Positions 8,268-23,662 of a DNA stretch of 64,000 bases are shown piece by piece (the stretch's first letter is position 1; each line of letters opens with the position of its first letter). The notes beneath the pieces were generated by a model. The model did not search any database, was not told where the DNA came from, and worked only from the letters and a program-made list of their open reading frames with translations. The DNA comes from Bradyrhizobium sp. CB2312 (GTDB lineage: Bacteria > Pseudomonadota > Alphaproteobacteria > Rhizobiales > Xanthobacteraceae): assembly GCF_029714425.1 (NCBI RefSeq), contig NZ_CP121668.1:8577501-8641500 (forward strand), given 5' to 3'. The position numbers were made by a program, and so were the translations under genes.

Positions 8268-10724
8268 CTAAGTCATTTCAAGAGCGCGGGGCGGAGGGAT
8301 GTCTCCTCCATCCCGATGGTCGTCCAGTCCCGTAACAATCGGAGTGAGCGGCGGAGGGTTCAGCGAGGCGAGATAACGATCATCAGCAACTTCGCCATAG
8401 AGCGTCGTACGTTGGCGCGGCAGGCGTGCCATGGCCCGGATGAGCTCTTCCATTTGTTTTGGAGCCATCTCGTGGCCATGCTGGGCGCCGGCTGAACGCG
8501 AGATCGTTTCGTCCATCAGCGTGCCGCCGAGATCGTTCACACCAGCCTCAAGGCAGGCGCGAACGCCTTTTTCGCCGAGCTTCACCCAAGAGGTCTGGAT
8601 GTTGGAGATTTTCGTGTGGAAGACGAGCCGTCCGATCGCATGCATGAGAACGACCTCGCGGAAGGTCGGCCCCTTGCGCGAGCGCCCCTTCAAGTAGATC
8701 GGGGCTTCCATGTGCACGAACGGCAATGGGACAAATTCAGTGAAGCCACCGGTCTCGGTCTGAAGATCCCGGATGCGCAACAGATGCTTTGCCCAATGCT
8801 CGTAACGGTCAATATGACCGAACATGATTGTTGCGGTGCTGCGCAATCCCGCTCTATGGGCCGCTGTCATGAACTGCAGCCATTGCGCGGTGTTGATCTT
8901 ATCGGGACACAGAATCGCGCGGACCTCGTCGTCCAGGATTTCTGCAGCCGTCCCTGGCAATGTACTAAGACCAGCGTCCTTCAATTCGCGCAGAAACTCC
9001 TCGATCGAAATTCCGAGCGTTTTGGCCCCCTGGAACACCTCGAGGGGCGAGAAAGCATGGATATGCATTTCGGGCGTGAACTGCTTTACGGTCCGACAAA
9101 TCTCAACATACTTTGCGCCGGTGTAGGCGGGATGGATGCCGCCTTGCATGCAGACTTCGGTCGCGCCGCGCTCCCAGGCTTCGCGGGCGCGCCGTCCGAT
9201 CTCATCCATGGAGATATCGTACGGCCTCCCGCGCAAGTTCTCGGCGAGCTTTCCTTTCGAGAACGCGCAGAACTGGCACCTGAAGTAGCAGATATTGGTG
9301 TAGTTGATGTTGCGGTTGACGACATAACTAACGCAATCGCCATTGACGGAGCGGCGCAGCTCGTCAGCAGCACGGCACACGGCCGTGAAATCGCGCCCCT
9401 CGGCCTCGAACAGCGACACGATCTCTGCCTCGTCGAGTCGTGCCCCAGAATGAGCCTTTGCGACAATTCCCCGAAAACTGCCGGTTAAGACGGCGGGCGA
9501 GCTGGCATCTTCACGCAGCATCGCGAGGTCGCCGGCAGGCGGATCGCACTTCGCTCCAGGGCACCATTCGTCCAAACGCGGCCAGCCATTTCCGTCGACA
9601 AGACCGAGCAGGTTTTTCTGCAGGGACGCGTCAGTCCAGCGAGCATATTGACGCGCATAGGCCGGGTAAACTGCGAGGCGTTCGACGAGCGCCTTGCCGC
9701 ATTCAGCGGTGGCCTCGGACAGGCGTGTCACATGCGGCCAAGGCGCCTCCGGATTGACGTGGTCCGGTGTAACCGGGGATACGCCGCCCCAATCATTAAT
9801 GCCAGCGGCCAGGATCATGTGCAGTAGGCCCGGACTGAGATTGGGGGGCGCCTGGATGTTCATGTCGGGCCGGAACAGCAATCGCGTGAGCGCAAGGGTC
9901 CACAGATGCTCTTCCATAGTCGGCGCCAGCGCGTCCCTCATGCGGGTTTCCGGCTTCGGCCTGAAGTTCTGGATAATGACTTCCTGAATGTGCCCGTAGC
10001 GATCGTCCAGATTGCGCAATGCAAGCAGCGAGGAGATGCGCTCAAGCGGCGTCTCGCCGATGCCGATCAGCAATCCGCTGGTGAACGGGACCGAGAGCTG
10101 GCCTGCGAGTTCGATTGTTCGCAGCCGACTTGCGGGCTCCTTGTCAGGAGAGCCGAAATGTGGCCCCCCGGGCTCGCACAGCCGTGCCGATGCGCTCTCG
10201 AGCATGATCCCTTGCGAGATGGAGACCTTGCGCAAGGCTGCGATATCGTCGGCCTCCATCAAACCTGGATTGAGGTGCGGCAACAAGCCAGTCTCGCGGA
10301 AAACCACGCGCGCGGCTTCCTGGAGGTACGCGAGCGTCGATGCAAAGCCCATCTCGTGCAGCTCTCGCTCGGCCTGGCGGTAGCGCAGCTCAGGCTTGTC
10401 GCCCAGCGTAAATAGCGCCTCCTTGCAGCCGGCCTCACGACCGGCACGCGCAATCGCCAGCACCTCATCGATGGTGAGGTAGGCACGCTGCCCTTTTTGG
10501 GACGGATGGGCGAATGTGCAGTAGTGGCAGACATCACGGCATAACTGGGTCAGCGGAATGAAGACTTTTCGCGAGTAGGAGATCTTTCTGCCGTGAGCCT
10601 CATCCCGCTTTGACGCCGCCATCCGCATGAGATCGGGAAGGGACACGTCGCTGACGAGAGACAGGGCCTCGGAAGCGGAAATGTCGCTTCGCCTTAACGA
10701 TTCCAGAAGCATCCGATCCACCAT
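8268..10724 (-). CDS. fbiC: FO synthase, fused CofG/CofH (FbiC type)
   Basis: An 818-residue fused radical-SAM enzyme that makes FO, the deazaflavin chromophore of F420, from tyrosine and 5-amino-6-ribitylamino-uracil. The N-terminal CofG half has the 4Fe-4S cysteines C62, C66 and C69 in LCRDVCHYCTFAHP. The CofH half has a second set near 478-485 in NICYFRCQFCAF. The CofG-then-CofH fused order and the length match actinobacterial FbiC, whereas many archaea have two separate genes. The start lies 12 bp after the cofC stop, so it is last in the cofE-cofD-cofC-fbiC operon. F420 synthesis is rare among alphaproteobacteria, which suggests horizontal acquisition. Confidence 0.96.
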   Translation of the reverse strand: MVDRMLLESLRRSDISASEALSLVSDVSLPDLMRMAASKRDEAHGRKISYSRKVFIPLTQLCRDVCHYCTFAHPSQKGQRAYLTIDEVLAIARAGREAGCKEALFTLGDKPELRYRQAERELHEMGFASTLAYLQEAARVVFRETGLLPHLNPGLMEADDIAALRKVSISQGIMLESASARLCEPGGPHFGSPDKEPASRLRTIELAGQLSVPFTSGLLIGIGETPLERISSLLALRNLDDRYGHIQEVIIQNFRPKPETRMRDALAPTMEEHLWTLALTRLLFRPDMNIQAPPNLSPGLLHMILAAGINDWGGVSPVTPDHVNPEAPWPHVTRLSEATAECGKALVERLAVYPAYARQYARWTDASLQKNLLGLVDGNGWPRLDEWCPGAKCDPPAGDLAMLREDASSPAVLTGSFRGIVAKAHSGARLDEAEIVSLFEAEGRDFTAVCRAADELRRSVNGDCVSYVVNRNINYTNICYFRCQFCAFSKGKLAENLRGRPYDISMDEIGRRAREAWERGATEVCMQGGIHPAYTGAKYVEICRTVKQFTPEMHIHAFSPLEVFQGAKTLGISIEEFLRELKDAGLSTLPGTAAEILDDEVRAILCPDKINTAQWLQFMTAAHRAGLRSTATIMFGHIDRYEHWAKHLLRIRDLQTETGGFTEFVPLPFVHMEAPIYLKGRSRKGPTFREVVLMHAIGRLVFHTKISNIQTSWVKLGEKGVRACLEAGVNDLGGTLMDETISRSAGAQHGHEMAPKQMEELIRAMARLPRQRTTLYGEVADDRYLASLNPPPLTPIVTGLDDHRDGGDIPPPRALEMT

Positions 10725-10736
10725 TCCCAGAACTCC

Positions 10737-11504
10737 TCACGCGCCGCGAAAAACGGCGGAGGTCTCTCCATTTTGAGCAACCAACCCCGAGCTCAGTTCG
10801 GCCGCCGCATCGACGCTTGCGCGCCCCGTCTTATTGGCTCCCATGCCCAGCCGCCTTTGGCCCAGATCAATCGAACGCAAATAACGATCGGTGGCTGTGG
10901 ACGTGTTCAGGTCAAGAAAATCAAAGAGATCGGCGGGAGCATCGAGATCCAGCCCAATTCTTGCATTCCGCCACACGATAGGCTCAATGCCGAGCCGATC
11001 GGCTGCGGCGATGTGGCGGGCGAAGCTATCGGGGCCGAAACATGGCTGCAAGGCTCGCGCTAAGGTGAATGCAACCGCGTTGGTGCCGCCATCGCGCGGC
11101 GCTGGGACGATCACTACGGCGTTGGCTTCCGCGGCTTGGAGAAGCGTCGAAACGTCCTCGCTCAAGATTGCCGGGACGTCACTCGGCAGAACAAGGACGA
11201 GTTCGTCCCCATGACTTTCGACGGCGGCGAGCCCGGCTGCCACTGCGGCGTTGGTTCCGTCCGCACCGCCGTCATCAATCACGACAGTCCCCAGACGAGC
11301 CGCCTCTTGAGCGACATCCTCAGCATTTGTTACCACAACGATATGATTCAATTTTATCACGCCGCATGCCGAGCTCAGAACATCGGCCAGCATCGACCGG
11401 GCCAACAGGGCGCGCTCGGATGGCGTCAGCAATGGAGAGAGCCGCTGCTTCGCGCACGAGAACGATTTTGCCGGGATGACTAACCATGCATCACGTGTCG
11501 TCAT
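10737..11504 (-). CDS. cofC: CofC/FbiD-type guanylyltransferase
   Basis: A 255-residue nucleotidyltransferase of the CofC family, which activates 2-phospho-L-lactate, phosphoenolpyruvate or 3-phosphoglycerate with GTP in F420 synthesis. The N-terminal motif WLVIPAKSFSCAKQRLSPLL is the GTP-binding signature, and DELVLVLPSDVPAI and GTNAVAF are typical. The ATG at 11504 fits the family N-terminus and has a G-rich Shine-Dalgarno; the frame reaches 11579. The gene overlaps the cofD end by 14 bp. Which C3 acid it uses decides the F420 variant and cannot be read reliably by eye. Confidence 0.93.
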   Translation of the reverse strand: MTTRDAWLVIPAKSFSCAKQRLSPLLTPSERALLARSMLADVLSSACGVIKLNHIVVVTNAEDVAQEAARLGTVVIDDGGADGTNAAVAAGLAAVESHGDELVLVLPSDVPAILSEDVSTLLQAAEANAVVIVPAPRDGGTNAVAFTLARALQPCFGPDSFARHIAAADRLGIEPIVWRNARIGLDLDAPADLFDFLDLNTSTATDRYLRSIDLGQRRLGMGANKTGRASVDAAAELSSGLVAQNGETSAVFRGA

Positions 11505-12510
11505 GATGCGCCCCCTTCGAAGGAGGTCTGCTCCGCCGTTCGTGCTTTGCGCGAAGGCTCTCACCGAACGCCAGCGCATGCTCGGCGAGCGTGATCTTCG
11601 ACTGCAAGTCTGTCATGAGCGTAGGTGCCGGGTGTACGTCGACGCCAAGGTCGGCCGAACCTGCGGCGTCCGCCGAGTCTATGACGAGACCGTCGAGCAG
11701 CCCCGCATAATGTCTGGCAATCTCGGCGTTTGACGGCTCGAGGCCGAGTTCGTCCATGATCTTGCGCGTCGGCCCTTTGATTGCCTGACCGTCGATAATC
11801 GGGGAAATGGCCACAACGGGAACGCTGGTCGCACGCAGTTTTTCAGCCATCCCTGGAACAGCCAGGATTGGATCGATGCTGAGATAGGGATTGGAAGGAC
11901 ATAGGATGATGAGGCGGAGATCCTCGGCATCGAATGACGCAAGCACCTCCTCACTCAGGCGAGCGTTTCGCGCCCCGTTGAACCAGATCTGCTTGACGAC
12001 GGGTTCGCAGCGACGTCCCACGAAATAGCGCTGGAATTCGAGCTCGCCTTCCGAGCTGTCGACCATGGTGGAGAGCTTGTCGTTGGTGACGGGCAGCACG
12101 ACCGAACGAACACCGAGCCGGCGCGCAATGTCGCTGGCAATCGCTGTGAGACTTTCGCCGCTTGAGCGTCGGCGGGTCCGCTCGACATGCATCGCCACAT
12201 CGCGATCGCCGAGCAAGAACCAGGTCTCGCCCCCGATCTGCTTCAAAGCCTCCATGAAGTTCCAGGTTTCATCGGATCGACCCCAACCGCGCACCGGGTC
12301 GCTGAGACCTGCGAGCGTATAAAGAACTGTGTCCAGGTCCGGCGAGATATGAAGTCCGAGATGTTCGAAATCGTCGGCCACATTGACGACAACGCTCAAT
12401 CGTTCTCCGAGAACGTGCTGCAATCCGACAGCGAGCTTTGCTCCTCCGACGCCACCGCAGAGCGCCACAACACGCCCTTCTCCCGGCAAATACTGTGACC
12501 GCCCGTTCAT
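11491..12510 (-). CDS. cofD: CofD/FbiA 2-phospho-L-lactate transferase
   Basis: A 339-residue transferase that joins the activated C3 phospho-acid to FO, giving F420-0 or its dehydro or 3PG analogue. Landmarks are VVALCGGVGGAKLAVGLQ near residue 15, VVNVADDFEHLGLHISPDLDT (metal and substrate site), and ILCPSNPYLSIDPIL. The start overlaps the cofE stop by 4 bp. The protein is of normal family length with no visible lesion. Confidence 0.95.
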   Translation of the reverse strand: MNGRSQYLPGEGRVVALCGGVGGAKLAVGLQHVLGERLSVVVNVADDFEHLGLHISPDLDTVLYTLAGLSDPVRGWGRSDETWNFMEALKQIGGETWFLLGDRDVAMHVERTRRRSSGESLTAIASDIARRLGVRSVVLPVTNDKLSTMVDSSEGELEFQRYFVGRRCEPVVKQIWFNGARNARLSEEVLASFDAEDLRLIILCPSNPYLSIDPILAVPGMAEKLRATSVPVVAISPIIDGQAIKGPTRKIMDELGLEPSNAEIARHYAGLLDGLVIDSADAAGSADLGVDVHPAPTLMTDLQSKITLAEHALAFGESLRAKHERRSRPPSKGAHHDDT

Positions 12511-13271
12511 CTGAACATATCCCGTTCTTTCGCACGCATGAGCGCGGACGCCGAATTGATTGGCGCGCGAGAGGAGAATCCACGGACATGGATGACGGGC
12601 TGGCCTTCGGCTGCCTGTCCCATCAAGAGCGAGGCGGCAGCTGCCAGCTCATCCGCTAGCGCGATCTCTGTCACCTGCATGGGCCGCCCGAACAGATCGG
12701 GCTTGCCGATCATGCTCTGAAGGGCAGGAATTCCAGCACTTCCGAGCGCCACGCCAACGACGCCGTTGCGCCACGGGCGGCCGAAGCTGTCGTTTATAAT
12801 GACACCGACATCGACACCGAATTGTTGATCGAGGCCAGTCTTGAGGCGTTGGCAACTGGTATCTGGATTTTCGGGCAGCAACAACACGCGATGGCCTCGA
12901 TCCTGCTCGATATTGGATTCATCTATGCCGGCGTTCGCCATCACGAAGCCGAGGCGGTGAGCAACGATGATTATATTCTGTCTTGCGCGAAGAACCTCGG
13001 TCGATTCTGAGAGCACCACCTCGATGTGCCGGGGATCCTTGCCGACCGTTTTTGCAAGCTCCAGAGCGCGGTCGGAAGGGCTCACATCATCGAGATAGAC
13101 GTACCTGTTTTCCGCCTTCGACACGATCTTTTGCGCAATGACAAAAATATCGCCGGATGCGACGACGATCCCTCCGGCCCTCACGCCATCCACGATGACG
13201 TCAACCAGATCGTCGCCCGGTCCCACCAGAGGAATCCCGGGGAGCGCGCTGTAAGTGATGCTCCTCGTCAT
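12507..13271 (-). CDS. cofE: Coenzyme F420-0:L-glutamate ligase, stand-alone
   Basis: A 254-residue F420-0 gamma-glutamyl ligase that adds glutamates to F420-0 with GTP. Family motifs are [17 protein letters not shown] at the N-terminus, [10 protein letters not shown] (metal and GTP site), and [19 protein letters not shown]. The ATG at 13271 matches the family start and has AAGGAGG upstream; the open frame continues to 13331. It lacks the C-terminal FMN domain of mycobacterial FbiB, which reduces dehydro-F420-0. First gene of the F420 operon, with about 245 bp of promoter space upstream. Confidence 0.95.
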
Positions 13272-13517
13272 CGCGACTTCTTCCTCCTTCGCCGCTGCCC
13301 ACATGTCTTGTTGTCTCTGGCGCGTGGGCATCTCTCCTCGAATACAATCTCTAAGAGCCGTACCCGAAATCAGTTTGGTATCCTAACGCTTCTCCTTAAG
13401 CAGACCTAGCTGGGACACCTCCCGGATAAGTCTTCGTTCCGATCCTGCAGGCGTGCTGACGAGCGTTTCCGCGCCACCTCCCGCCTTATTCCGGACTCCG
13501 CTTCGCAACCGGCAACG

Positions 13518-14027
13518 CTAGCCATGAAGCGCTGCCGGAGAAATTGACCGCTTTACGACAGTGCGCATTGCGAAGCTCGATTGCAGTCTTGCCACGCCTG
13601 GCAGGCGTGAGAGGTGCTGCTTATGAATGCGTTCGTAATCCTCCATGTCGCGCGCCAACACCGAAAGCCGATAATCGTCCGTACCGGACATCAAATGGCA
13701 GGCGATAACGTCGGGGCATTTCTGAATTTCGGCCTCGAAAACCCTAAGCGCGTCCTCGCTTTGGCGGTCGAGCGTGATGTGGACGATCACGGTCAGGGGA
13801 AAGCCAAGCGAGTTTGCATCGATCTCGGCTGAATAGCCTTTAATGACCCCGGCCTTCTCCATTTGCAGCACGCGCCTTGCGCAAGACGTTGCCGAGAGGC
13901 CGACCCGTTCGGCCAACGCCAGCTGGCTTATTCGGGCATCCCGAATGAGCTCGCTTAGGATTTTACGGTCCAGAGGATCGAGGGCTGTGAGCATCGTTGC
14001 GAACGCCCGTTGAGGTTTTCCATTCAC
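13518..14027 (-). CDS. Lrp/AsnC family transcriptional regulator
   Basis: A 169-residue Lrp/AsnC regulator. The N-terminal winged helix reads LDPLDRKILSELIRDARISQ and LAERVGLSATSCARRVLQME. The RAM ligand domain includes VIACHLMSGTDDYRLSVLA. The ATG at 14027 overlaps the stop of the upstream F420 reductase gene by 4 bp; an in-frame ATG at 13994 is the alternative. Its place between the reductase and cofE suggests it senses an amino acid or pathway intermediate and controls the F420 operon, which is inference from position. Confidence 0.92.
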   Translation of the reverse strand: MNGKPQRAFATMLTALDPLDRKILSELIRDARISQLALAERVGLSATSCARRVLQMEKAGVIKGYSAEIDANSLGFPLTVIVHITLDRQSEDALRVFEAEIQKCPDVIACHLMSGTDDYRLSVLARDMEDYERIHKQHLSRLPGVARLQSSFAMRTVVKRSISPAALHG

Positions 14028-14686
14028 GTCAGGCCGGAAATCGTGATGCCGGCACCTTTCACTTTGTATTTGCGGTTGATCGCGATCAGGACGGAGGTAA
14101 GAGCCTCGGCTGCGGCCGAGTTCGCGAGCGCACCGCCATCGATCCCGCGATTGCTCACCGCATCCGCCAGCAGCATCACCTCCTTGCGGGCCTCAGGATC
14201 ATCGCTGAACACGAGGACGTCGCAGTCCGCCTTGCCTCCGGCATGGAGCTTCTGTGAGCCAACATTGTGAAACGCCCCGACCACCCGCGAGCTCGGATCA
14301 AGCTGCGACTGCGCGATCAGCGCAGCCGACCCGGCGCTCGGGAGTTGAACAACAGAGACCTTCGGCGGCACGAGCGGCACGACCGCGGTGACAACGATCT
14401 TGCCCTTGGCCGCGTCCCTGATCTCGGCCAAGCTTGTCTCATAGCTCGCAAAAGGCACGGCAACGACGACAATATCGCTCTTTGCTGCGGCGGCAACGTT
14501 GGTGTCGCCACTCACATTGGCGAACCCGTCGGATTTTAAGAGCGCTACTGCATCTTGAGCACGCTCAATCGAGCGCGATCCAAGAATGACGGAGTATCCG
14601 GCGCGACTCCAGCTGCGGGCAAGGCCGGATCCGAGATCTCCAGTGCCGCCGACGATTGACAAAGTCGGAAGGGGCGCGTTCGACAT
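14024..14686 (-). CDS. npdG: NADPH-dependent F420 reductase-like protein
   Basis: A 220-residue protein matching F420:NADP oxidoreductases (Fno/NpdG), which shuttle hydride between NADPH and F420. The Rossmann motif LSIVGGTGDLGSGLARSW is at the N-terminus, followed by ILGSRSIERAQ (NADP site). Later landmarks are VVAVPFASYE, VGAFHNVGSQKLHAG and CDVLVFSDDPEA. The ATG at 14686 has AAAGGAG upstream. Lying beside a full F420 synthesis set, it most likely supplies or drains reduced F420 for the LLM oxidoreductase encoded upstream. An NADP oxidoreductase of another coenzyme is less likely. Confidence 0.9.
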   Translation of the reverse strand: MSNAPLPTLSIVGGTGDLGSGLARSWSRAGYSVILGSRSIERAQDAVALLKSDGFANVSGDTNVAAAAKSDIVVVAVPFASYETSLAEIRDAAKGKIVVTAVVPLVPPKVSVVQLPSAGSAALIAQSQLDPSSRVVGAFHNVGSQKLHAGGKADCDVLVFSDDPEARKEVMLLADAVSNRGIDGGALANSAAAEALTSVLIAINRKYKVKGAGITISGLT

Positions 14687-14889: not shown

Positions 14890-15123
14890 CTAGCCGCCTT
14901 CAAGATAGGGAAAGAAATTAAGTTCGGCTCCGTCTTTGACTTCAGCCGACAACGGCACAACCATGTCACCTATCGAGGCCAGCCAGACCTCATGCTCGGC
15001 ACTCAAGGAGCCGACCACGTTGAGAATCGTCGCTCCCTCGGGGAGGTCAAGCTGAATGGATCCAACTCCGCCGGGCAAGAACCGGCGGAGATTTCCATGC
15101 ATATTGACCTCGACGCGGATCAT
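14890..15123 (-). CDS. MoaD/ThiS-like sulfur carrier protein
   Basis: A 77-residue ubiquitin-like protein ending in Gly-Gly (NFFPYLEGG), the C-terminus thiocarboxylated in MoaD/ThiS proteins. LPEGATILNVVGSL and DMVVPLSAEVKDGAELNFF match the MoaD fold. Its start overlaps the stop of the molybdenum subunit gene by 4 bp. MoaD makes the dithiolene of molybdopterin, so it may serve cofactor assembly for this hydroxylase, or donate sulfur in a pathway of its own. No moaE partner is in the window. Confidence 0.85.
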   Translation of the reverse strand: MIRVEVNMHGNLRRFLPGGVGSIQLDLPEGATILNVVGSLSAEHEVWLASIGDMVVPLSAEVKDGAELNFFPYLEGG

Positions 15124-17393
15124 GGGTGCCGGGCTCGCATTGTGGCGGCAATTTTTTCAGCGGTCATCGGCAGCGAATTCGGCCAGCAACCGGTCGCCGC
15201 CGCGATCGCATTGCCGATAGCAGCCGGTGGCTCGATGCACGGTGGCTCCCCGACGCCCTTGGCACCGTAAGGACCGGCAGCGGAGCGGCATTCGACGATA
15301 ATGCTCTCGATCTCCGGGACATCCATCGCTGTCGGCATCTTGTAATCGGTCAGGTTCGCATTCATGACGCGGCCATCCTGATAGACGATCTCTTCCGACA
15401 GCGCCTGGCCTATACCTTGCGCCACGCCGCCCTCGATCTGGCCCTCGATATAGGTCGGATTGATCGCATATCCGACGTCCTGGGCCACGACATAACGATT
15501 GATCGTAACCTTGCCCGTGGCTTGATCGACCGAAAGATCGACGGCGTGGGCATGGTAGCTCGGCGTATTCCAGACAGGGAGCGGATGGTTCTTGACGCGT
15601 GCCGGATCATAGGCTGGCGCTGGCGAAATGGCCGTGCCATGCGCGATGAGTCCGCCGCCGGCCAGACGCGAGATGCGCGCCAGCTCCGCGATCGAAATCG
15701 ACTTGTTGCCTGCGACCACGTGCTTGTCCTGCAGCTTCATGTTCTCAATCGGTGCTTCTAGCTGCTTGGCTGCGAGCTCGAACATCTGCCGTCGCAGCTC
15801 TTTAGCTGCCGCAATGCACGCATTGCCGACAGAGAAGGTCGTGCGGCTGCCCTGAGCGCCGTAGTCGAACGGCGCGGCCTGAGTGTCCACCCCGGTGACG
15901 TTGATGTCCGTCAAGTCGAGAGACAGCTCCTCGGCCAGCACTTGAGCAGCTCCCGTGATCGCGCCGGTGCCGATTTCGACGGCGCCGCTGACGAGCGTCG
16001 CACTCCCATCGGGGTTGATCTTGACGTAGACCCCAGACGAGCCGCCCGTCGTCATCCACCAGCTGCAGGCGATCCCCTTGCCGCGTCCTGGCTCGGGATT
16101 ACGATCGTGCCAGCCGATCGCATCGGCTGCCTTGCGCAGACATTCCTCGATGCTCACGGAGGTGTGCGTCTCGCCCGAAGGACCAGGATCCCCCTCCTTG
16201 ACGACGTTGCGCAGGCGCATTTCGAGAGGATCCAGGCCGAGATCCTTTGCGATCATGTCGATCTGGCTTTCCATCGCGAAATTCGCCATCGGCCCCGCCG
16301 GAGCACGGAAGGAGCCCGAATGGACCTTGTTCGTGTAGACAGCGATGCTTTCAAACGCGAGCGCTCCGGTCTTATAGGGGCCGGCCATGACCTGAAGTGC
16401 GATTGCAGCCGTGCCGGGACCTGAGCCTGCATAAGCGCCACAATCCACGATGACCCGGCCGCTTCGGGCAAGAAGATGCCCTTCCTTGTCGACGGCAGTT
16501 TTGAGCAGAACGACGGAGGCCTGACGCGGAAGCGCGGCTGTGAGCTCCTCTTCGCTCGTCGACATCACCTTGACCGGGCGGGCGGTCTTGCGCGCTAAGA
16601 GAGCTGCGAAGTGCTCGACACCAATCCTCAGCTTGCCGCCGAAGCCACCACCAATTCCTGGCACGGTCACGCGCACCCTCGCGGCGGGCAAATCGAGAAT
16701 TTCGGCCAGTGTCGTTTGCGTGTCGAACGGCAATTGGGTGTTGCACCAGACCGTCACGATTCCGTTCGCGTCCCAATCCGCGGTCGCAACGCGCGGCTCG
16801 GTGTAGCCTGGATGCTGTAGCGAGGTCGTGAAACGATGCTCGTAGACCTTATGAGCTTTTGCGAAGACTGCCTCGACATCGCCGACGTGAATACGGGCTT
16901 GACCTGCGATGTTGTTGTTGCGCGAAATGATCGGAAGCGCCTTGTAGGTTTCCCAATCGGGATGGATACGGATATCGCTTGTGAGCGCCTCCTCCGGATC
17001 GTAAAGTGCCGGCAGATCCTGGTATTCAACCTCGATGGCTTCAATCGCGCGCTCGGCGATCTCGGAGGAGGTGGCAGCGACCGCGGCGACTGCATGTCCC
17101 ATGAACAGGACACGATCGGTTGCGAACACGGTCGTGTCGCGCACCGCAGTTCCATAGCGGACCTGCGGGATATCAGCGGCGGTGATGATCCCGCGCACGC
17201 CGTCGATCGCAGCCGCGCGAGAGACGTCGATGTTCTTGATCAGAGCGTGCGCGCGAGCACTGCGCAGGATCTTGCCGTAGAGCATACCGGGCAGCTTGAA
17301 ATCCGCAGCATAAACGTGCTTTCCGGTAACTTTGCCGACGCCATCCCGCCGGGGCAGGCGGTGACCGGCAACGCGATGGGTTTGAGCGTTCAT
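15120..17393 (-). CDS. Xanthine dehydrogenase family molybdopterin subunit
   Basis: A 757-residue large subunit of a molybdenum hydroxylase (xanthine dehydrogenase / CO dehydrogenase large-chain family). The N-terminal a/b hammerhead region includes GKVTGKHVYAADFKLPGML. GIGGGFGGKLRIGVEH and FRAPAGPMANFAMESQ line the cofactor pocket, and AKGVGEPP near the C-terminus carries the catalytic Glu. The ATG at 17393 fits the family start and overlaps the [2Fe-2S] gene by 4 bp; the frame runs upstream to 17672. The enzyme probably hydroxylates a carbon next to a ring nitrogen or an aldehyde, but the substrate is unknown. Confidence 0.94.
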   Translation of the reverse strand: MNAQTHRVAGHRLPRRDGVGKVTGKHVYAADFKLPGMLYGKILRSARAHALIKNIDVSRAAAIDGVRGIITAADIPQVRYGTAVRDTTVFATDRVLFMGHAVAAVAATSSEIAERAIEAIEVEYQDLPALYDPEEALTSDIRIHPDWETYKALPIISRNNNIAGQARIHVGDVEAVFAKAHKVYEHRFTTSLQHPGYTEPRVATADWDANGIVTVWCNTQLPFDTQTTLAEILDLPAARVRVTVPGIGGGFGGKLRIGVEHFAALLARKTARPVKVMSTSEEELTAALPRQASVVLLKTAVDKEGHLLARSGRVIVDCGAYAGSGPGTAAIALQVMAGPYKTGALAFESIAVYTNKVHSGSFRAPAGPMANFAMESQIDMIAKDLGLDPLEMRLRNVVKEGDPGPSGETHTSVSIEECLRKAADAIGWHDRNPEPGRGKGIACSWWMTTGGSSGVYVKINPDGSATLVSGAVEIGTGAITGAAQVLAEELSLDLTDINVTGVDTQAAPFDYGAQGSRTTFSVGNACIAAAKELRRQMFELAAKQLEAPIENMKLQDKHVVAGNKSISIAELARISRLAGGGLIAHGTAISPAPAYDPARVKNHPLPVWNTPSYHAHAVDLSVDQATGKVTINRYVVAQDVGYAINPTYIEGQIEGGVAQGIGQALSEEIVYQDGRVMNANLTDYKMPTAMDVPEIESIIVECRSAAGPYGAKGVGEPPCIEPPAAIGNAIAAATGCWPNSLPMTAEKIAATMRARHP

Positions 17394-17884
17394 TGCTTGG
17401 CTCCCGAAAGTGCGATGCGGTCCGCCGCGGTTTCCACCGCATCGATGATCTTGCGATAGCCGGTGCAGCGGCACAGGGTTCCTGCGATGGCTTCCCTGAT
17501 CTCCTCGCGCGAGGGGCGGCAGCCCGGATGTTCGTCCAGGAATGACTTTGCCGTCAGGATCATTCCCGGGATGCAGTAGCCGCACTGAACGGCGCCGCAT
17601 TCGATGAACGCTTCCTGAAGGGGATGCAGATGCTCGGGATCGCCGATCCCCTCGATCGTGGTGATCGAGCATCCCTCAGCCTGGCCCGCAAGCAGGATGC
17701 AGGAATTGACGGCCCTTCCATCAAGCAGCACCGTGCAGACGCCGCACTCTGCTTCCAGGCAGTTCTCCTTGGTGCCCATCATGCCGATCTCGTTGCGCAG
17801 GACCTGCAGCAGCGTCCAATGGGGCTCGATAAGCAGCTGGTGGCTCTCGCCATTGACAACGATATTGAGAATTTTCCGGTTCAT
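17390..17884 (-). CDS. [2Fe-2S] subunit of the molybdenum hydroxylase
   Basis: A 164-residue small subunit carrying two [2Fe-2S] clusters. The plant-ferredoxin-type cysteines are in NCLEAECGVCTVLLDG and NSC. The second set is in CGYC and CRCTGYRK. The ATG at 17884 matches the family N-terminus (MNRKILNIVVNGE); the frame stays open to 17914. It overlaps both neighbours by 4 bp, giving the order FAD subunit, Fe-S subunit, Mo subunit. It passes electrons from molybdenum to the FAD subunit. Confidence 0.95.
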   Translation of the reverse strand: MNRKILNIVVNGESHQLLIEPHWTLLQVLRNEIGMMGTKENCLEAECGVCTVLLDGRAVNSCILLAGQAEGCSITTIEGIGDPEHLHPLQEAFIECGAVQCGYCIPGMILTAKSFLDEHPGCRPSREEIREAIAGTLCRCTGYRKIIDAVETAADRIALSGAKQ

Positions 17885-18756
17885 TGATCCTGTTCCCGAA
17901 TTCGTTGCAAACACGTCTCAAGCGCGCGCTCGACCATCACCGCGACAAGGCCACGGCGGTAGCCGGCCGAGGCGCGGACATCGGAGATCGGACTGGACGC
18001 CTCCGCAGCGAGCCTGCCTGCCTCCGCAAAATTTTCCTTGCTGGCGGACTGGCCAAGGAGATAGCTCTCCGCCTGTTCGGGACGGAATGCCTTTGGGCTT
18101 GCGGCCCCGATGGCGAGGCGCACGGAAGCGCAGCGCGAGGTGGAAGCCTCCAGCGTCAAACAAGCAGCAACACAAACCACCGATATTTCCATGGCGCGCC
18201 GGCGACCTTCCTTCAGGAAGGCGGTTGCGGATCTGGCTGGAAGCTTGGCAAACCGGATGTTCGTCACGATCTCGGCGGGCAAGAGAGCTGTCTTTCCCGG
18301 ACCGACGATGAAGTTGCGCAACGGGGAAGAGCGCTGTCCATTGGGACCTGCCATGTCGACACTGGCATCGAGCGCGAGCAGCGGCGGCACAAAATCGGCG
18401 GCAGGCGACGCATTGACGATGTTGCCGCCGATGGTCGCGATGTTTCGTACCTGATGGCCACCGACCACGCTGGCGGCCTCTTGCAGCGCCCGCAGGTTAA
18501 CCCGAAACGCAGGATGCGTTTCGATCGCGCGGTACCTCGTCAGCGCCCCAAGAGTGAACGCGCCGGCAGCCTCGGTGATTTCGTTCATGCCGGGCAGGCA
18601 CGCGACATCGATCAGATGGACCGGATCGATCTTCTTCCGATGGATCTGGATGACTGTATCGGTTCCGCCGGCAACATAGCGTGCGGTGGGCGCAAACCGT
18701 TGAGCAAAGTCGATAGCTTCGGTGACGCTGGCTGGACGATGCAGATCAAAGCTCAT
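17881..18756 (-). CDS. FAD-binding subunit of the molybdenum hydroxylase
   Basis: A 291-residue medium subunit of the xanthine dehydrogenase / CoxM type. The FAD motifs are ARYVAGGTDTVIQIHRKKI near residue 28 and TIGGNIVNASPAADFVPPLLAL near residue 108. The C-terminal CO_deh_flav_C-like domain is present. It overlaps the Fe-S subunit gene by 4 bp and follows the LLM oxidoreductase gene by only 6 bp, so LLM enzyme and hydroxylase are almost certainly cotranscribed. Confidence 0.93.
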   Translation of the reverse strand: MSFDLHRPASVTEAIDFAQRFAPTARYVAGGTDTVIQIHRKKIDPVHLIDVACLPGMNEITEAAGAFTLGALTRYRAIETHPAFRVNLRALQEAASVVGGHQVRNIATIGGNIVNASPAADFVPPLLALDASVDMAGPNGQRSSPLRNFIVGPGKTALLPAEIVTNIRFAKLPARSATAFLKEGRRRAMEISVVCVAACLTLEASTSRCASVRLAIGAASPKAFRPEQAESYLLGQSASKENFAEAGRLAAEASSPISDVRASAGYRRGLVAVMVERALETCLQRIREQDQ

Positions 18757-18762
18757 GACTTG

Positions 18763-19797
18763 CTACCTTCCCTTCGCCTGGGCAACAGCAGGCCACACTT
18801 GGGAGCCCATCATCGCGATCGTCTCCTCGATCGTACCTCCTTCAGGCGCAAAGGGCATGATGATGATCCCGTCGACGCCGGCCTGGCGCAGCTCGATCAC
18901 ACGCGCGGTCACCTCCTCGACATTGCCGGCCAGAGTGAAGGCATTGATATGGCGATCGGTCACATATGGCAGCAGAGGAAGATAAGGCGTCACGCCAGCG
19001 GCGTAATGGGCGCCCTGAACCGAGGCGAGTATATCCTCCGGCAAGGTCAGCCCCTGCTCTTCGGCCGTTTCGAATTTGAGACGCCCTGCACCGAGCAATC
19101 TTGCAACCGTCGGCCGCAGCGCGTCGCGGGCGGCCTGACCGTCTGGGGCAACACAGGCGTTGAGCCGGACGATAAGCCTGACGGACTTGGGATCGCGACC
19201 TGCCTTCTTCGCTCCATCATCCAGTCTCGCACGGAACGCCTTGACTTCCGGAGCATTGCCGCCTGCTTCCATGAACGCAGCGTCGGCGCAAGCGCCTGCC
19301 GTCCGTTGGCCGAGCGGACCGTTGCTGGCCACATAGATTGGGATATCAGCGCGAACAGGAGTGAAGTTCAGCTTGCCCTCCTTGAACTGAATGACCTCTC
19401 CGTCGTAGGTGACGGTCTCGCCACGCAGGAGCATCCGGATCACCTCGATCGCTTCGCTGATAGCGCGCGCCGGCTTCTTCCGATCGATGCCAAGCTCAGC
19501 GAAGCCGGAAATACCGGCGCCGAGGCCGAGAATTGCGCGCTTGTTGGAAATCTCGTCGAGTGTCGCAATCGCCATGGCTGTCAGTGCAGGATGTCTGGCG
19601 TAGGGATCTGTCACGCAAGGTCCGAGCCTGACCCGAGACGTATTTTGCGCGAAATATCCCAGACACGAATAGACCTCCCGATAGAACCGTTCATCGGCAA
19701 GCCAGACCGTGTCGTATCCGCTCGCTTCGGCGAGCTTGACGCGATCAAGCATCTTGACCATGGGCGCGTTGCCGAGAATCAGCAGGTCGAGGGTCAT
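18763..19797 (-). CDS. LLM class (F420/flavin-dependent) oxidoreductase
   Basis: A 344-residue TIM-barrel oxidoreductase of the luciferase-like monooxygenase / methylene-H4MPT reductase (Mer) type. Landmarks are VKLAEASGYDTVWLADERFYREVY, RVRLGPCVTDPYARHPALTA and AILGLGAGISGFAELGI. This superfamily includes both FMNH2-dependent monooxygenases and F420-dependent reductases. The F420 synthesis and reductase genes in the same locus favour F420. The ATG at 19797 has AGGA upstream and looks better than the ATG at 19821, which has no Shine-Dalgarno. Substrate unknown; position suggests it acts before or after the molybdenum hydroxylase. Confidence 0.92.
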   Translation of the reverse strand: MTLDLLILGNAPMVKMLDRVKLAEASGYDTVWLADERFYREVYSCLGYFAQNTSRVRLGPCVTDPYARHPALTAMAIATLDEISNKRAILGLGAGISGFAELGIDRKKPARAISEAIEVIRMLLRGETVTYDGEVIQFKEGKLNFTPVRADIPIYVASNGPLGQRTAGACADAAFMEAGGNAPEVKAFRARLDDGAKKAGRDPKSVRLIVRLNACVAPDGQAARDALRPTVARLLGAGRLKFETAEEQGLTLPEDILASVQGAHYAAGVTPYLPLLPYVTDRHINAFTLAGNVEEVTARVIELRQAGVDGIIIMPFAPEGGTIEETIAMMGSQVWPAVAQAKGR

Positions 19798-19859
19798 CTT
19801 GTCGGTATCCTGTTTGCGCATACGTCTTGGATCAGGCAGAGCTCAACGCGAAGGAGGGA

Positions 19860-20180
19860 TCATTCTATCTCGTCGCTGACGAAATAGATGTTCTTCGAGC
19901 GATCGAGATACTTGCCATAAAGCTCTTCTCGCAGTGCAACACCAGCCGGTGAGGCAAGGTCCTTGTCGTGTTGCTCCAGGCTCTTGACTTCGATCCTTTC
20001 GATATATTGCCACGTTGAGTTTTCGGCGCCCTGGATGGGGCGGCGAATGCGATGAACCTTATAGCTCACGTAATTGTCGAGGCTACGCACGAGAACGTAG
20101 TCGCGCTCGCGCACCCAAGCCTCATATTCCGCCGGGTCGACCCCTTCCTTGAGCGTGCTGATCAGGAAACGGACTGGCAT
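19860..20180 (-). CDS. RedY/HapK-like small protein
   Basis: A 106-residue protein resembling the RedY/HapK group (dimeric alpha-beta barrel proteins first named from prodiginine gene clusters). The segment LKEGVDPAEYEAWVRERDY is the most telling, followed by YVSYKVHRIRRPI and the acidic C-terminus. It overlaps the hydantoinase gene by 19 bp. Stress-responsive or cyclase-like dimeric barrel proteins are alternatives. Function in the locus unknown. Confidence 0.65.
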   Translation of the reverse strand: MPVRFLISTLKEGVDPAEYEAWVRERDYVLVRSLDNYVSYKVHRIRRPIQGAENSTWQYIERIEVKSLEQHDKDLASPAGVALREELYGKYLDRSKNIYFVSDEIE

Positions 20181-21745
20181 GTGACTTTCTCCTTGGCTGT
20201 TTGCCCCATTCGGGTTGATCGAATATTGCCGACCACTTTGACACGCACGCGCATGGCATTTCCGGGCAGATAGGCGATCGGCGTATCCTCCGCCTCGACC
20301 AGCGCGAGCGATTCTGAGTCCGCGCCGGCCTCCACTGCCCGGGATTCGGCAAGCTTGCGTGCTGAAGCAACCGCCTCGTCTCGCGTCAGTCCCTGAAACA
20401 CCTGGTCGACTTCACCACTGACCTGGGCAATGGCTGCGCCAACCGCATTCGCGCAACCACCGTGCTGAACCCGGACGACACGCCCGACGCCCTGCAATTC
20501 TTCCGGAACAAGAAACGCGCCGCCACCGACCGCAATCAGCGTGATGTCTGAAGCGTTTGTCTTCATCCGGTCGACGTTCTCTTCCAGCATCTCCTTGCAG
20601 CGGCGCAGAATCCTTTTCACGTCATCGGCAGCGATGTGTGCCACACGCTTGCGATCGCCGAGATCGATCAGTCCCGCGGCAACGCCGATGTCCGTCGCCG
20701 TCACGCGATTGCCGCCAAACACCAGCGCTTCCGTGGACAGGCGATACCCAACGCTAAGCGGCCCGATGGTTGCCGCTTCAAGGTCGATATGGCTGCCGCC
20801 ACCTAGTCCGATCGAAACGAGATCCGGCATACGGAACAGGGTCCTGACGCCTCCAATATGAACAACCGCGTTGGCTTCACGGGGAAAGCCATTTCTCAAG
20901 TAGCCAAAGTCCGCCGTCGTGCCGCCGACGTCGACCACCACCGCATCTTTGAGCCCCGAAAGATAGGCCGCACCACGCATTGAGTTGGTCGCACCGGAGG
21001 CAAAGCTGAACACCGGGTAGGTAGCGGCACGCGAGGCCTCCGCGACCGTGCCGTCGTTTTGCGTGACAAAAAGCGGCGCGTTCAGCCCGACTTTTGACTT
21101 GGCATGCTCAAAAGCCGTGATGGTCTCCCGCGCAAGCGCAATGAGAGAAGCATTGAGAATGGCCGCGTTCTCACGTTCGAGCAATCCTATCCCGCCGAGC
21201 AAATGTGCGCAGGTCACCGACACATCGGGGATTTCTTCGCGCAGGATGGCGGCGACCGCTTCTTCATCGGACGGATCAAGCGGAGAGAACAGTGCGTTGA
21301 CCACGACGTATTTGAGGCCGAGATTGCGTATTTCGCGCGCAATTCTTCTGGCTGCGGTAGTATCCAGAGGGGCGAACCTGCGCCCGTCGTAATCGTGGCC
21401 GCCTTCAATTTGAAAGACCCCGCCATTGGCGAGCTCAGCGAGGCCAGCCGGCCAATCGGTGAAGGGCGGCAAGGAGCTCGTGGCGGGGAGCGCGACCCGG
21501 ATCACCGCCACTTTCGTCAGATGACGGCGCTGAACGACCGCATTGATGAAGTGGGTCGTGCCGATCATCAGCGCGTCGAGACCACTGTCATGCTCGGCGC
21601 TCAGATCGAGTGCCTCGATGGCCGCAGCCACACCACTGGTGACGTCGGCCGTGGTCGCGACCTTCACGCCCTGCACGACCTTTCCGCCGTCGATCAGCAC
21701 GGCATCCGTATTGGTGCCACCTACGTCAATCCCAATGCGTCTCAT
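20162..21745 (-). CDS. Hydantoinase/oxoprolinase family protein
   Basis: A 527-residue protein of the HyuA / Hydantoinase_A family, ATP-dependent ring-opening or carboxylating enzymes. The N-terminus MRRIGIDVGGTNTDAVLIDG is the ASKHA phosphate-binding motif. MIGTTHFINAVVQRR, a second ATPase motif VVVDVGGTTADFGYL and LVSIGLGGGSHID follow. It overlaps the DUF917 gene by 4 bp. HyuA/DUF917 pairs are known to act together on hydantoin-like or thiohydantoin-like rings. ATP-driven opening of a cyclic amide or imide is therefore the likeliest role. Confidence 0.93.
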   Translation of the reverse strand: MRRIGIDVGGTNTDAVLIDGGKVVQGVKVATTADVTSGVAAAIEALDLSAEHDSGLDALMIGTTHFINAVVQRRHLTKVAVIRVALPATSSLPPFTDWPAGLAELANGGVFQIEGGHDYDGRRFAPLDTTAARRIAREIRNLGLKYVVVNALFSPLDPSDEEAVAAILREEIPDVSVTCAHLLGGIGLLERENAAILNASLIALARETITAFEHAKSKVGLNAPLFVTQNDGTVAEASRAATYPVFSFASGATNSMRGAAYLSGLKDAVVVDVGGTTADFGYLRNGFPREANAVVHIGGVRTLFRMPDLVSIGLGGGSHIDLEAATIGPLSVGYRLSTEALVFGGNRVTATDIGVAAGLIDLGDRKRVAHIAADDVKRILRRCKEMLEENVDRMKTNASDITLIAVGGGAFLVPEELQGVGRVVRVQHGGCANAVGAAIAQVSGEVDQVFQGLTRDEAVASARKLAESRAVEAGADSESLALVEAEDTPIAYLPGNAMRVRVKVVGNIRSTRMGQTAKEKVTCQSVS

Positions 21746-22818
21746 GAGCAGAATACCGACTTGAAATCGATGTCATAACCAAAGGCGCGGGGGCCGACAT
21801 GGTCGAGTCCGCGCGGCGAGAGGAAGACCGGAGCCGCCGGCAGCGCGATCACCGTCGTCCGCTGCCCGTAGCGAATGGTTTCCGTTCCGATCGCCTCGCC
21901 GGATTCGCTGTCGAGAACGCAAATAAGGTCCGGCGTCGAGACGAGCGCCTGCCCATCACGCCACACGACGATCCACTCATTCTGGAAGTCGATCCGGATC
22001 TGGCTGCCGTGGTCATCGCCAAGCCCCTCCACGACCGTGCGGCCGCGCAGGAAGCCCTCCGTTGTCCGCCGCTCGACTTCAACGATCTTGCCGGAGAACA
22101 GGAACTTGCCGGATTCCGCCTTCAGAATGGCCGCAATCGGGTCGGCGTGTTCCCGGTTGGCCTCAGCAACCGCCCGTCCGAGATTAATGGCCTTGGATGT
22201 GGTATGGGGAATGGCCCACTTTTTCACCTCAGCACCGGTGCGCGGCGCCTTGCAGGTCGCAACGATGGACCCGAACTCAGTGCAAAGCTTTCGGCTCACG
22301 CGCTCCATCCATTTCCAGGACGAGGTTTTGCCAACGATGGCCTCATTACCGCGCGGGTCTACTGAGGTCAGCGGATAAGGAGCGAGATTGCCCACTGCAA
22401 AGCTTGTCATTTGCGCTTCGGGATAGGCCCGGCCCATCGCATCGGCGTCGACAACTGGAATTTTCAGGTGAACGGCAGCAAGCAAGGACTGCATGCCGTT
22501 GCCGCCGCCGATCTCGACCGCCATCACCGCCCTGAACTTGCGGCCAAGATGCTCCTCCATAGCCGAAACGGCGCGAGCGATCAGCCTGCTGTCAACCAGA
22601 CGTTCCTGGAAGACAAGCGGCGCGCCCATGATGGAGACAACCGCGATCGCATCATCATCGTCCAGCTCATCAGGATCGATCAGATCGACGCGAACGCCCG
22701 CATCGTAGAAACGTCGCAAATTCAAGAGCGCGTGATACGGACTCCCGCCCCCGCCTGTTCCGAGAATCCAGGCACCGACCGAGAGCGCCTCGATATCCTC
22801 TGGACTCAATTGCCTCAT
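21742..22818 (-). CDS. DUF917 family protein (hydantoinase partner)
   Basis: A 358-residue DUF917 protein, the usual partner of short hydantoinase/oxoprolinase subunits. Recognisable stretches are GAWILGTGGGGSPYHALL, VDLIDPDELDDDD, VAVEIGGGNGMQSLLAA and PVVDADAMGRAYPEAQM. One family branch includes S-methyl-thiohydantoin desulfurase. It is the first enzyme gene after IclR, with 43 bp between them, and is coupled to the hydantoinase gene. Confidence 0.92.
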   Translation of the reverse strand: MRQLSPEDIEALSVGAWILGTGGGGSPYHALLNLRRFYDAGVRVDLIDPDELDDDDAIAVVSIMGAPLVFQERLVDSRLIARAVSAMEEHLGRKFRAVMAVEIGGGNGMQSLLAAVHLKIPVVDADAMGRAYPEAQMTSFAVGNLAPYPLTSVDPRGNEAIVGKTSSWKWMERVSRKLCTEFGSIVATCKAPRTGAEVKKWAIPHTTSKAINLGRAVAEANREHADPIAAILKAESGKFLFSGKIVEVERRTTEGFLRGRTVVEGLGDDHGSQIRIDFQNEWIVVWRDGQALVSTPDLICVLDSESGEAIGTETIRYGQRTTVIALPAAPVFLSPRGLDHVGPRAFGYDIDFKSVFCS

Positions 22819-22861
22819 CTATATCCTCCAAGCCGCATCGATTGCGGCGATAAAAAACCGA

Positions 22862-23662
22862 TCAAGCAGCAACCGGGCCGCCGCCTCTGCCAAGCGCGCG
22901 CTGCGCCCGCTGCAGCAGAAACTGATCGCCGAAGCGGTGCGCTATGCGCTGAGCGGCAGTTGTAAGCAGCGTGATCGCGCGATTCCTCTCCTCATCGCTC
23001 ATGTGCGAGGCTGGATACGAAATACAGAACCCCACGGTCTCGCGGATTTCTGGATCGGAGACGCTCACTGAGATTGAGCCGACCCCGGGGATCGCCTCAT
23101 CGAGGGCCTCGGCCCAGCCGAACCGGCGCGGCTGATCCAGCGCCGCCACCAGCTCGTCGACATTTTGAGGCGCGCGCGGCGAAGGCGGAGTGACACCTTC
23201 AACATGAAGCGAGCGCACCACGCCATCCGGAAAGCGCGAGAGCAGACTGCGCCCAATCGCAGTCGCAAAGGCAGGAGCACGCTGACCCAGCGGCGTGAAG
23301 ACACGCAAGGCGTGGGAGCCCTGATGCATCCGGATGACCAGAACATCCGCACCATCAAGGATCGAGACATAACCGGTGTGCCCGGTCTCTCGAGTGATCT
23401 CCTTTACGGCCTCATCGACGGCGTCAATCAGGGAAGAGTTCAGCTTGTAGAGGCGCGAAATCTCGAAAAGCAGATTTCCGACCTTATAGCGCGGCGGATT
23501 CTCCGAGCGCGACAGCAGCCCCTCAAGCAGCATCGTCTTCAGCAACCGAGATGCTGAACTTTTAGGCATATTCAACAGTTGCGAGACATCTGTCACCGAG
23601 ACCTCAAGCCTGCCTGGCCCGAAAAGTCTAAGGATTTGCGCTGCGTTTTCTATTGAGCCCAC
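22862..23662 (-). CDS. IclR family transcriptional regulator
   Basis: A 266-residue IclR regulator. The N-terminal winged helix is VGSIENAAQILRLFG with VTDVSQLLNMPKSSASRLLKTM. The ligand domain carries RETGHTGYVSILDGADV and AFATAIGRSLLSR. A frame upstream to 23755 exists, but the GTG at 23662 has AGGTGA 6-8 nt upstream and matches the family N-terminus. It is divergent from the ABC importer, with an inverted repeat between them, so it probably controls both the importer and the minus-strand catabolic operon in response to the imported compound. Confidence 0.92.
   Translation of the reverse strand: MGSIENAAQILRLFGPGRLEVSVTDVSQLLNMPKSSASRLLKTMLLEGLLSRSENPPRYKVGNLLFEISRLYKLNSSLIDAVDEAVKEITRETGHTGYVSILDGADVLVIRMHQGSHALRVFTPLGQRAPAFATAIGRSLLSRFPDGVVRSLHVEGVTPPSPRAPQNVDELVAALDQPRRFGWAEALDEAIPGVGSISVSVSDPEIRETVGFCISYPASHMSDEERNRAITLLTTAAQRIAHRFGDQFLLQRAQRALGRGGGPVAA

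Follow-up and report, generated by a model that had tools for sequence, protein, structure and literature searches.

The question raised by this locus is what a Bradyrhizobium would use coenzyme F420 for, when it encodes F420 synthesis in one operon with an LLM-type oxidoreductase and a three-subunit molybdenum (Mo) hydroxylase. The operon lies in a 64-kb stretch of Bradyrhizobium sp. CB2312 (the window: positions 8,577,501-8,641,500 of a single-contig, 9.78-Mb genome), whose closest named relative at the locus is Bradyrhizobium vignae (LLM identity 99%). Read along the minus strand from position 23662, the genes encode an IclR regulator, DUF917, HyuA, REDY, the LLM, the medium, small and large subunits of the Mo hydroxylase (MoM, MoS and MoL), a MoaD-like protein, an NADPH:F420 reductase (NpdG/FNO), an Lrp regulator, CofE, CofD, CofC and FbiC (Table 1). 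Past FbiC follow SnoaL-like, alpha/beta hydrolase and DUF1028 genes and then a GntR-SDR-SGL-BKACE operon, while a five-gene Dpp-type importer runs divergently from IclR on the plus strand. Six gene pairs overlap by 4 bp (CofE/CofD, Lrp/FNO, MoaD/MoL, MoL/MoS, MoS/MoM and HyuA/DUF917). The original prediction, made from the bare sequence, had suggested a possible F420-dependent catabolic system and listed a full F420 synthesis set, an F420:NADP reductase, the LLM, Mo hydroxylase, HyuA, DUF917 and IclR on one strand (8268-23662), a MoaD-like protein, the divergent importer and many 4-bp overlaps; that inventory holds, with Pfam matches for the LLM, the three Mo hydroxylase subunits, HyuA, DUF917 and IclR. 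Absent from it were the REDY/HapK-like protein, the Lrp/AsnC regulator and the SnoaL-like, alpha/beta hydrolase and DUF1028 genes. We regard the locus with good confidence as a catabolic operon that includes the Mo hydroxylase, and give about an even chance to the fuller reading developed below, in which it degrades an imported ring compound with F420H2 as the driving reductant.

All five F420 proteins (FbiC, CofC, CofD, CofE and NpdG/FNO) exceed an NCBIfam equivalog cut-off, and the operon's CofC and CofD are the sole matches to these families in the genome (at E 1e-3 and E 1e-60, respectively). CofE passes TIGR01916 but falls 11 bits short of PRK13293 (263.3 vs 274), and consists of one Pfam domain, the second being absent. 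According to the available part of PMC8764529, a serine at CofC position 162 marks the 3PG-F420 type of Mycetohabitans. Aligned to 7p97 and 6bwg, the window CofC has a glycine at this diagnostic position, within an FGPDS stretch as in Mycobacterium tuberculosis FbiD. Because the marker residue is glycine and not serine, the 3PG-F420 variant is ruled out and the operon product is predicted to be classical F420.

The LLM is very probably F420-dependent. Its AlphaFold model (pLDDT 90.3, from 26 sequences) is closest to the F420-dependent enzyme Mer by both Foldseek and VIA-align, and Mer is also the best match among solved sequences. Among the 25 of 30 NCBIfam matches listed, none passed its cut-off, and the Mer model TIGR03555 gave 205.9 against a cut-off of 348.7. 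The position of Mer Glu6 is occupied by Leu in all 28 ungapped LLM rows and that of Asp96 by Ile or Val in 31 of 31 sequences. Glu44, Arg48 and His77 are invariant among these 31, as is Val70, which aligns with jMer Val62 and would supply the small hydrophobic residue at a predicted non-prolyl cis-peptide site; Arg45 also counts among the invariant residues. The window LLM family thus resembles Mer in fold and closest solved sequence and differs from it in the catalytic acids; with both acids replaced by hydrophobics and a score below the TIGR03555 cut-off, Mer proper (methylenetetrahydromethanopterin reductase) is ruled out. The enzyme probably uses the same cofactor as Mer for other chemistry.

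A scan of a genome contig collection with the LLM protein, made by short peptide patterns and so not exhaustive, returned 36 loci, of which the 30 with LLM identity of at least 45% are compared here, with genes in relatives called by codon-model choice. Left out were L036 and L038-L041 (LLM 32-42%), L042 (a 42-residue match), L003-L005 (37-38%) and a 56% paralogue in L043. The 30 hosts comprise Bradyrhizobium, Ferrovibrio, Caldovatus, Vineibacter, Reyranella and other Proteobacteria, Rokubacteria, and metagenome-assembled genomes (MAGs) labelled Actinobacteria and Armatimonadota. MoL lies in the same gene run as the LLM in 26 loci, and the other four contigs stop 0-0.73 kb beyond the LLM. Homologues of the MoaD-like gene occur in 19, REDY anywhere in the stretch in 25 and the Dpp solute-binding protein (at least 50% identity) in 22, with IclR found in both large groups. 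The usual order in Alphaproteobacteria is IclR-(DUF917-HyuA)-REDY-LLM-MoM-MoS-MoL-MoaD, that in several Rokubacteria IclR-MoM-MoS-MoL-LLM-MoaD-REDY-importer; that the set is kept despite rearrangement argues for a shared function. The grouping is not due to chance, since the genes recur together across genera and phyla and are under purifying selection, with low ratios of nonsynonymous to synonymous substitution (for the 15 operon genes, 0.03-0.26 in comparison with two further Bradyrhizobium and at most 0.41 with Ferrovibrio, one value being undefined). A lack of co-occurrence in other genomes had been named beforehand as grounds for abandoning the prediction, which survives this comparison. 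HyuA-DUF917, originally counted as part of the set, is an add-on outside the conserved core, present in 9 of the 30 loci (L007-L013, L016 and L018). A literature search of open-licence PMC papers returned no description of this operon, which is not proof of absence.

Within Bradyrhizobium, synteny extends over roughly 40 kb in another two genomes (G769 and G875); PntAB and a porin were not found in their syntenic block, and the gene at window positions 84-1295 is missing or partial there. Bradyrhizobium and Ferrovibrio group together (99/97) within the proteobacterial set of the LLM tree, which gave a long-branch warning. This placement, together with the presence of the LLM in 9 of 265 Bradyrhizobium genomes, suggests that Bradyrhizobium acquired the locus by transfer. 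The 'rhizobial island' of the original prediction holds as patchy occurrence only, and a tRNA search of the window found none.

Carriers of the LLM nearly all make F420. CofD exceeds its cut-off in 33 of the 36 carrier genomes, the misses being an Armatimonadota MAG (G425), a Chloroflexi MAG with a fragment (G426) and an Alteribacillus genome whose LLM match spans just 42 residues; CofH exceeds its cut-off in 29. In the proteobacterial group (L007-L024 plus L037, with L021 labelled Proteobacteria alone and L037 Enhydrobacter), CofD is present in 19 of 19 carriers versus 43 of 289 sampled alphaproteobacteria, the window genome counted. Within Bradyrhizobium the figures are 9 of 9 carriers versus 41 of 265 genomes, and CofD lies approximately 6-7 kb from the LLM in each carrier. 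The two tests overlap in some Bradyrhizobium genomes, and their P values take no account of relatedness. F420 synthesis far above background in carriers, CofC and CofD encoded by the operon alone and the Mer-nearest predicted fold of the LLM together support a dedicated F420-linked catabolic system.

The means of charging F420 differ among carriers. NpdG/FNO is present in 6 of 6 Bradyrhizobium carriers searched and in the window genome, and FGD, which charges F420 from glucose-6-phosphate, in 0 of 7 Bradyrhizobium carriers at E 1e-30. The 13 other proteobacterial carriers show the reverse (NpdG in 0 of 13 at E 1e-20, FGD over its cut-off in 13 of 13). Among L025-L034 (Rokubacteria and one actinobacterial MAG), NpdG has a match in all 10 and exceeds its cut-off in nine, FGD in none. 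Of the remainder, G426 has FGD, G425 has NpdG and no CofD, and G428 has CofD and neither enzyme over its cut-off. As the main groups each have another enzyme able to charge F420, the simplest view is that the LLM consumes F420H2, and on this parsimony argument we consider the reductive direction fairly likely.

The Mo hydroxylase has the Mo-binding, FAD and 2x[2Fe-2S] subunits of the xanthine dehydrogenase family in its broad sense. MoL E716, in the GEPP motif, is presumably the catalytic Glu of Mo hydroxylases and is invariant in 26 sequences, the window's included. The best solved chain for MoL is 1rm6 (E 1.4e-115), and membership of the 4-hydroxybenzoyl-CoA reductase family is ruled out by scores of 552.7 versus 994.55 for the large subunit (TIGR03194) and 118.8 versus 404.55 for the medium one (TIGR03195). 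An NCBIfam search with the window MoaD-like protein gave no match, and its B. vignae homologue (L007) scores 22.6 bits with Pfam ThiS, barely over the cut-off of 22.5. Across the window and 19 other loci, members of this family are 76-77 aa long, share a conserved LRR(F/L) motif close to the N-terminus and end in GG or AG. Tied as it is to the Mo hydroxylase, the family is possibly a dedicated sulfur carrier.

We propose that the operon, probably controlled by its IclR regulator, serves to break down an imported compound, probably one with a nitrogen-bearing aromatic ring. The operon would supply its own F420, which FNO would charge from NADPH. The Mo hydroxylase would add oxygen beside the ring nitrogen, the Mer-like LLM would reduce and thereby dearomatise the activated ring with F420H2, and HyuA-DUF917 would open the resulting cyclic amide in Bradyrhizobium and a few relatives, other lineages needing other hydrolases. 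This order is preferred because the logic of the uric acid pathway and picrate-reducing LLMs are both known; the full sequence of steps is tentative, as is the substrate class.

The published uric acid pathway, in the part of the account available, combines a Mo enzyme, reductive dearomatisation and ring hydrolysis; an F420 variant of it has been predicted, and in one phylum the predicted reductase is an LLM. The same portion describes an anaerobic setting, in which the Escherichia coli and Clostridioides difficile enzymes draw on NADH or likely ferredoxin. The locus resembles it in placing a xanthine dehydrogenase-family Mo enzyme beside a dearomatising reductase, followed by hydrolytic opening, but differs in its PF01968-type HyuA with DUF917, its REDY and MoaD-like proteins, its own F420 synthesis and its Dpp importer. 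The domains of YgeY (PF01546) and YgeX (PF00291) and the amidohydrolase domain PF01979, which we take to be that of SsnA, had no match among the scanned operon proteins, ruling out the reductive uric acid pathway as a family. When the Chloroflexi loci L036 and L038 were scanned for the uric acid cluster (ten proteins, L035 included), L036 showed an Amidohydro_3 protein, with a MoL of 33-34% on the opposite strand. NpdG is a partner in picrate reduction. In actinobacteria, the picrate ring is reduced by F420H2-dependent LLM enzymes (LLHT; PMC8498797, available part). Like the proposed step, this is F420H2-dependent LLM hydride transfer onto an electron-poor ring; unlike the locus, it belongs to another phylum and acts on another substrate, and the available text of PMC8498797 names neither a Mo hydroxylase nor an importer nor HyuA-DUF917. 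We rate the locus as an F420 variant of reductive ring catabolism with its own cofactor supply, not a wholly new kind of pathway.

Several observations weigh against this reading. L017 and L024, two of the four loci whose contigs stop just beyond the LLM, show neither IclR nor the Dpp importer upstream of it; the distant LLMs of L003-L005 (37-38%) are surrounded by importer genes, and the 4 kb examined contain no Mo gene; and G425 and G426, both possibly incomplete, have no CofD over the cut-off. HyuA-DUF917 is missing from 21 of the 30 loci, some of whose contigs are short. The nearest solved relative of MoL, 4-hydroxybenzoyl-CoA reductase, has a carbocycle as substrate, and polyketide-like rather than nitrogen-ring substrates are indicated by the fold of REDY, the SnoaL domain and the adjacent 3,5-dioxohexanoate enzyme. 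Finally, FNO or FGD fixes the direction of the LLM only weakly, as every organism that makes F420 requires an enzyme to reduce it. The LLM could instead run oxidatively, oxidising an alcohol, hemiaminal or N-alkyl intermediate with F420 while FNO hands the hydride to NADP in an operon oxidative throughout. FNO is reversible, the second-nearest fold to the LLM model is Adf, an F420-dependent alcohol dehydrogenase, and the operon's other redox enzyme is expected to be oxidative; nevertheless, the 13 FGD-bearing, NpdG-less proteobacterial carriers would then contain two enzymes that reduce F420 and nothing in the system to consume F420H2 (consumers elsewhere in these genomes were not searched for), and we consider this direction unlikely.

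An oxygen ring, polyketide-like or of the phloroglucinol type, is a comparably unlikely substrate. Here the LLM or its paralogue LLM2 would reduce a cyclic diketone tautomer, degradation would proceed via 3,5-dioxohexanoate to acetoacetate, and HyuA-DUF917 would serve another branch. The BKACE protein of the neighbouring operon exceeds the cut-off for 3,5-dioxohexanoate:acetyl-CoA acetone transferase, a GntR of 77% identity adjoins LLM2, REDY resembles olivetolic acid cyclase, and the anaerobic phloroglucinol pathway consists of a reductase, cyclohydrolase, dehydrogenase and BKACE-type lyase (PMC10470551, available part). However, the distribution of the BKACE family is not tied to the core, and no dihydrophloroglucinol cyclohydrolase was identified, though no specific search was made. 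Far less probable still is an ordinary FMNH2-dependent monooxygenase, with the F420 genes serving something else: many enzymes of the LLM superfamily use FMN, and the FGD entries and the first FMN enzyme tie in Z, but Mer is the best match in both sequence and fold, CofD co-occurrence is near complete and the scanned operon proteins contain no flavin reductase domain. A thiohydantoin or ergothioneine-type route, in which DUF917 would desulfurise a thiohydantoin with the MoaD-like protein as sulfur carrier, is similarly remote. The only NCBIfam matches of DUF917 are two thiohydantoin desulfurases, NF058532 and NF058529, yet its scores are so far below both cut-offs (117 vs 450 and 113 vs 440) that this family is ruled out, and most loci lack DUF917.

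The distribution of HyuA-DUF917 fits a general cyclic-amide cassette recruited to this locus. No HyuB gene lies beside HyuA. DNA similar to the pair occurs in 52 plasmid records, and the LLM had no plasmid match at E 1e-50. Two of the 52 records were inspected: a Salipiger plasmid has a peptide-type importer with DUF917-HyuA-AroM and a Ketogulonicigenium plasmid a HyuA/HyuB neighbourhood, with no LLM or Mo hydroxylase in their gene tables, which are incomplete. The REDY model (pLDDT 95.6) is closest in fold to olivetolic acid cyclase and HapK. The window SnoaL and alpha/beta hydrolase may belong to the system, as L020 and L037 carry homologues (41-42% and 26-27%, respectively) between LLM and MoM.

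Further along the minus strand, the BKACE protein scores 512.9 bits against the 430 of NF053538 and fits the lyase reaction in the anaerobic degradation of phloroglucinol as given in the available part of PMC10470551. The GntR-SDR-SGL-BKACE operon, whose SDR and SGL have no specific assignment, shows synteny with G769 and G875. The BKACE family occurs in 7 of the 7 Bradyrhizobium carriers searched and in 2 of 14 Bradyrhizobium that lack the LLM; of the other carriers, 4 of 13 from Proteobacteria and 0 of 13 from other phyla have it. The family therefore looks more like an extension belonging to Bradyrhizobium than a component of the core. A second set, left of the window (L043:12206-16804), comprises LLM2 (56% identical to the LLM), SBP2 (a solute-binding protein, 61%), REDY2, SDR2, a GntR (77% to the window GntR) and a short permease fragment, and is followed by PntAB in the window genome. 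Aligned to the window-genome LLM2, the LLM2 frames of seven relatives are open from its Met; that of B. vignae L060 alone has an internal stop and lies in two pieces. Behind the importer, a second REDY-like gene (window 29394-29646, plus strand) is apparently split across two frames, and G769 has a full-length match there. A cytochrome P450 and a pantoate-beta-alanine ligase lie distant from the operon, at window 55992-57389 and 57564-58445 (minus strand).

Table 1. Genes of the F420 operon and its surroundings, in window coordinates. Scores are bits versus cut-off; ORF, open reading frame; SBP, solute-binding protein.
Feature	Position	Strand	Evidence and remarks
FbiC (fused CofG-CofH), FO synthase	8268..10724	-	NF006687, 1162 vs 1018
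CofC, guanylyltransferase	10737..11504	-	TIGR03552, 149.8 vs 105; start probably 11504, longest ORF to 11579
CofD, 2-phospho-L-lactate transferase	11491..12510	-	TIGR01819, 275.1 vs 257.45
CofE, F420-0 gamma-glutamyl ligase	12507..13271	-	TIGR01916, 271.5 vs 180.65; longest ORF to 13331
Lrp/AsnC-type regulator	13518..14027	-	PF01037, PF13412
NpdG/FNO, NADPH:F420 reductase	14024..14686	-	TIGR01915, 174 vs 149.8; longest ORF to 14752
MoaD/ThiS-like protein, 77 aa	14890..15123	-	Sequence; C-terminal Gly-Gly; homologues in 19 other loci
MoL, Mo hydroxylase large (Mo-binding) subunit	15120..17393	-	PF01315, PF02738, PF20256; GEPP motif at residue 715
MoS, Mo hydroxylase small [2Fe-2S] subunit	17390..17884	-	PF01799, PF00111; invariant cysteines
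MoM, Mo hydroxylase medium (FAD) subunit	17881..18756	-	PF00941, PF03450
LLM oxidoreductase, Mer-like, predicted F420H2-dependent reductase	18763..19821	-	Pfam match
REDY/HapK-like dimeric alpha-beta barrel protein	19860..20180	-	PF11639
HyuA-type hydantoinase/oxoprolinase protein, 527 aa	20162..21745	-	PF05378, PF01968
DUF917/S-Me-THD-like partner of HyuA	21742..22818	-	PF06032, PF20906
IclR regulator	22862..23662	-	PF01614, PF09339; GTG start 23662 likely, longest ORF to 23755
Dpp/Opp-type importer, whole	23715..29283	+	PF00496, PF00528, PF00005; conserved with core
Importer SBP	23715..25412	+	
Importer permeases	25448..26464, 26464..27351	+	
Importer ATPases	27348..28322, 28291..29283	+	
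SnoaL-like	7295..7804	-	Pfam; start inferred from translation; probable accessory gene
Alpha/beta hydrolase	6278..7069	-	Pfam; probable accessory gene
DUF1028	5367..6281	-	Pfam; start inferred from translation; probable accessory gene
GntR-SDR-SGL-BKACE operon	1714..5198	-	BKACE over NF053538; possible lower pathway in Bradyrhizobium

Other F420 gene groupings place the locus in a wider setting. On pSymA of Sinorhizobium meliloti R28 (L069, CP130049.1 32826-75024), F420 genes, NpdG and a TIGR03619 LLM accompany an ArgE/DapE deacylase, PntAB, a three-subunit Mo hydroxylase, a branched-chain-type importer and a PyrC-type dihydroorotase. This region resembles the window in FNO, CofD and FbiC (64%, 56% and 69% identical) and in joining an LLM and a three-subunit Mo hydroxylase to an importer and a cyclic amidohydrolase, here of the dihydroorotase type; however, its MoL is 29% identical, its LLM belongs to the TIGR03619 subfamily and has no match above 60 bits to the window LLM, and its importer is of the branched-chain-amino-acid type. 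It is an assembly separate from the window cluster. In other S. meliloti strains, a 26-kb pSymA region with F420 genes was linked to nodule competitiveness by a genome-wide association study, with diaminopropionate ammonia-lyase among the genes listed (PMC8407117, available part). The pSymA enzyme list resembles, in our reading, the reductive uric acid pathway in an F420-using form. On a plasmid of Agrobacterium rubi (L070, NZ_CP049208.1), F420 genes and an LLM adjoin the 5-oxoprolinase PxpA and carboxyltransferase-type subunits. Because L069 and L070 both show such groupings, the combination of F420, LLM and cyclic-amide or lactam hydrolase recurs in Rhizobiaceae with unrelated parts; the annotated neighbours of the F420 genes on plasmids L071 and L072 include no cyclic-amide hydrolase. 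On L072, from the root-nodule isolate Paraburkholderia sprentiae (NZ_CP017565.2), F420 genes and an LLM adjoin a PQQ-binding-like protein and pqqABCDE.

We suggest, somewhat tentatively, that aerobic soil bacteria possess an F420H2-dependent reductive ring-degradation pathway of Mo hydroxylation, F420H2 reduction and ring opening, in a cluster able to carry its own cofactor supply and spanning Alphaproteobacteria, Rokubacteria and MAGs labelled Actinobacteria and Armatimonadota; this would be the first physiological role assigned to F420 in Alphaproteobacteria. The locus offers a concrete candidate for such a role in named strains, for example of B. retamae, B. jicamae and B. valentinum, and the occurrence of similar blocks in other groups of bacteria suggests that the pathway, so far unstudied, is real. 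Since pSymA F420 genes are linked to nodule competitiveness, and the like region of another strain has an LLM and a Mo hydroxylase, F420-linked catabolism may count for fitness in the rhizosphere.

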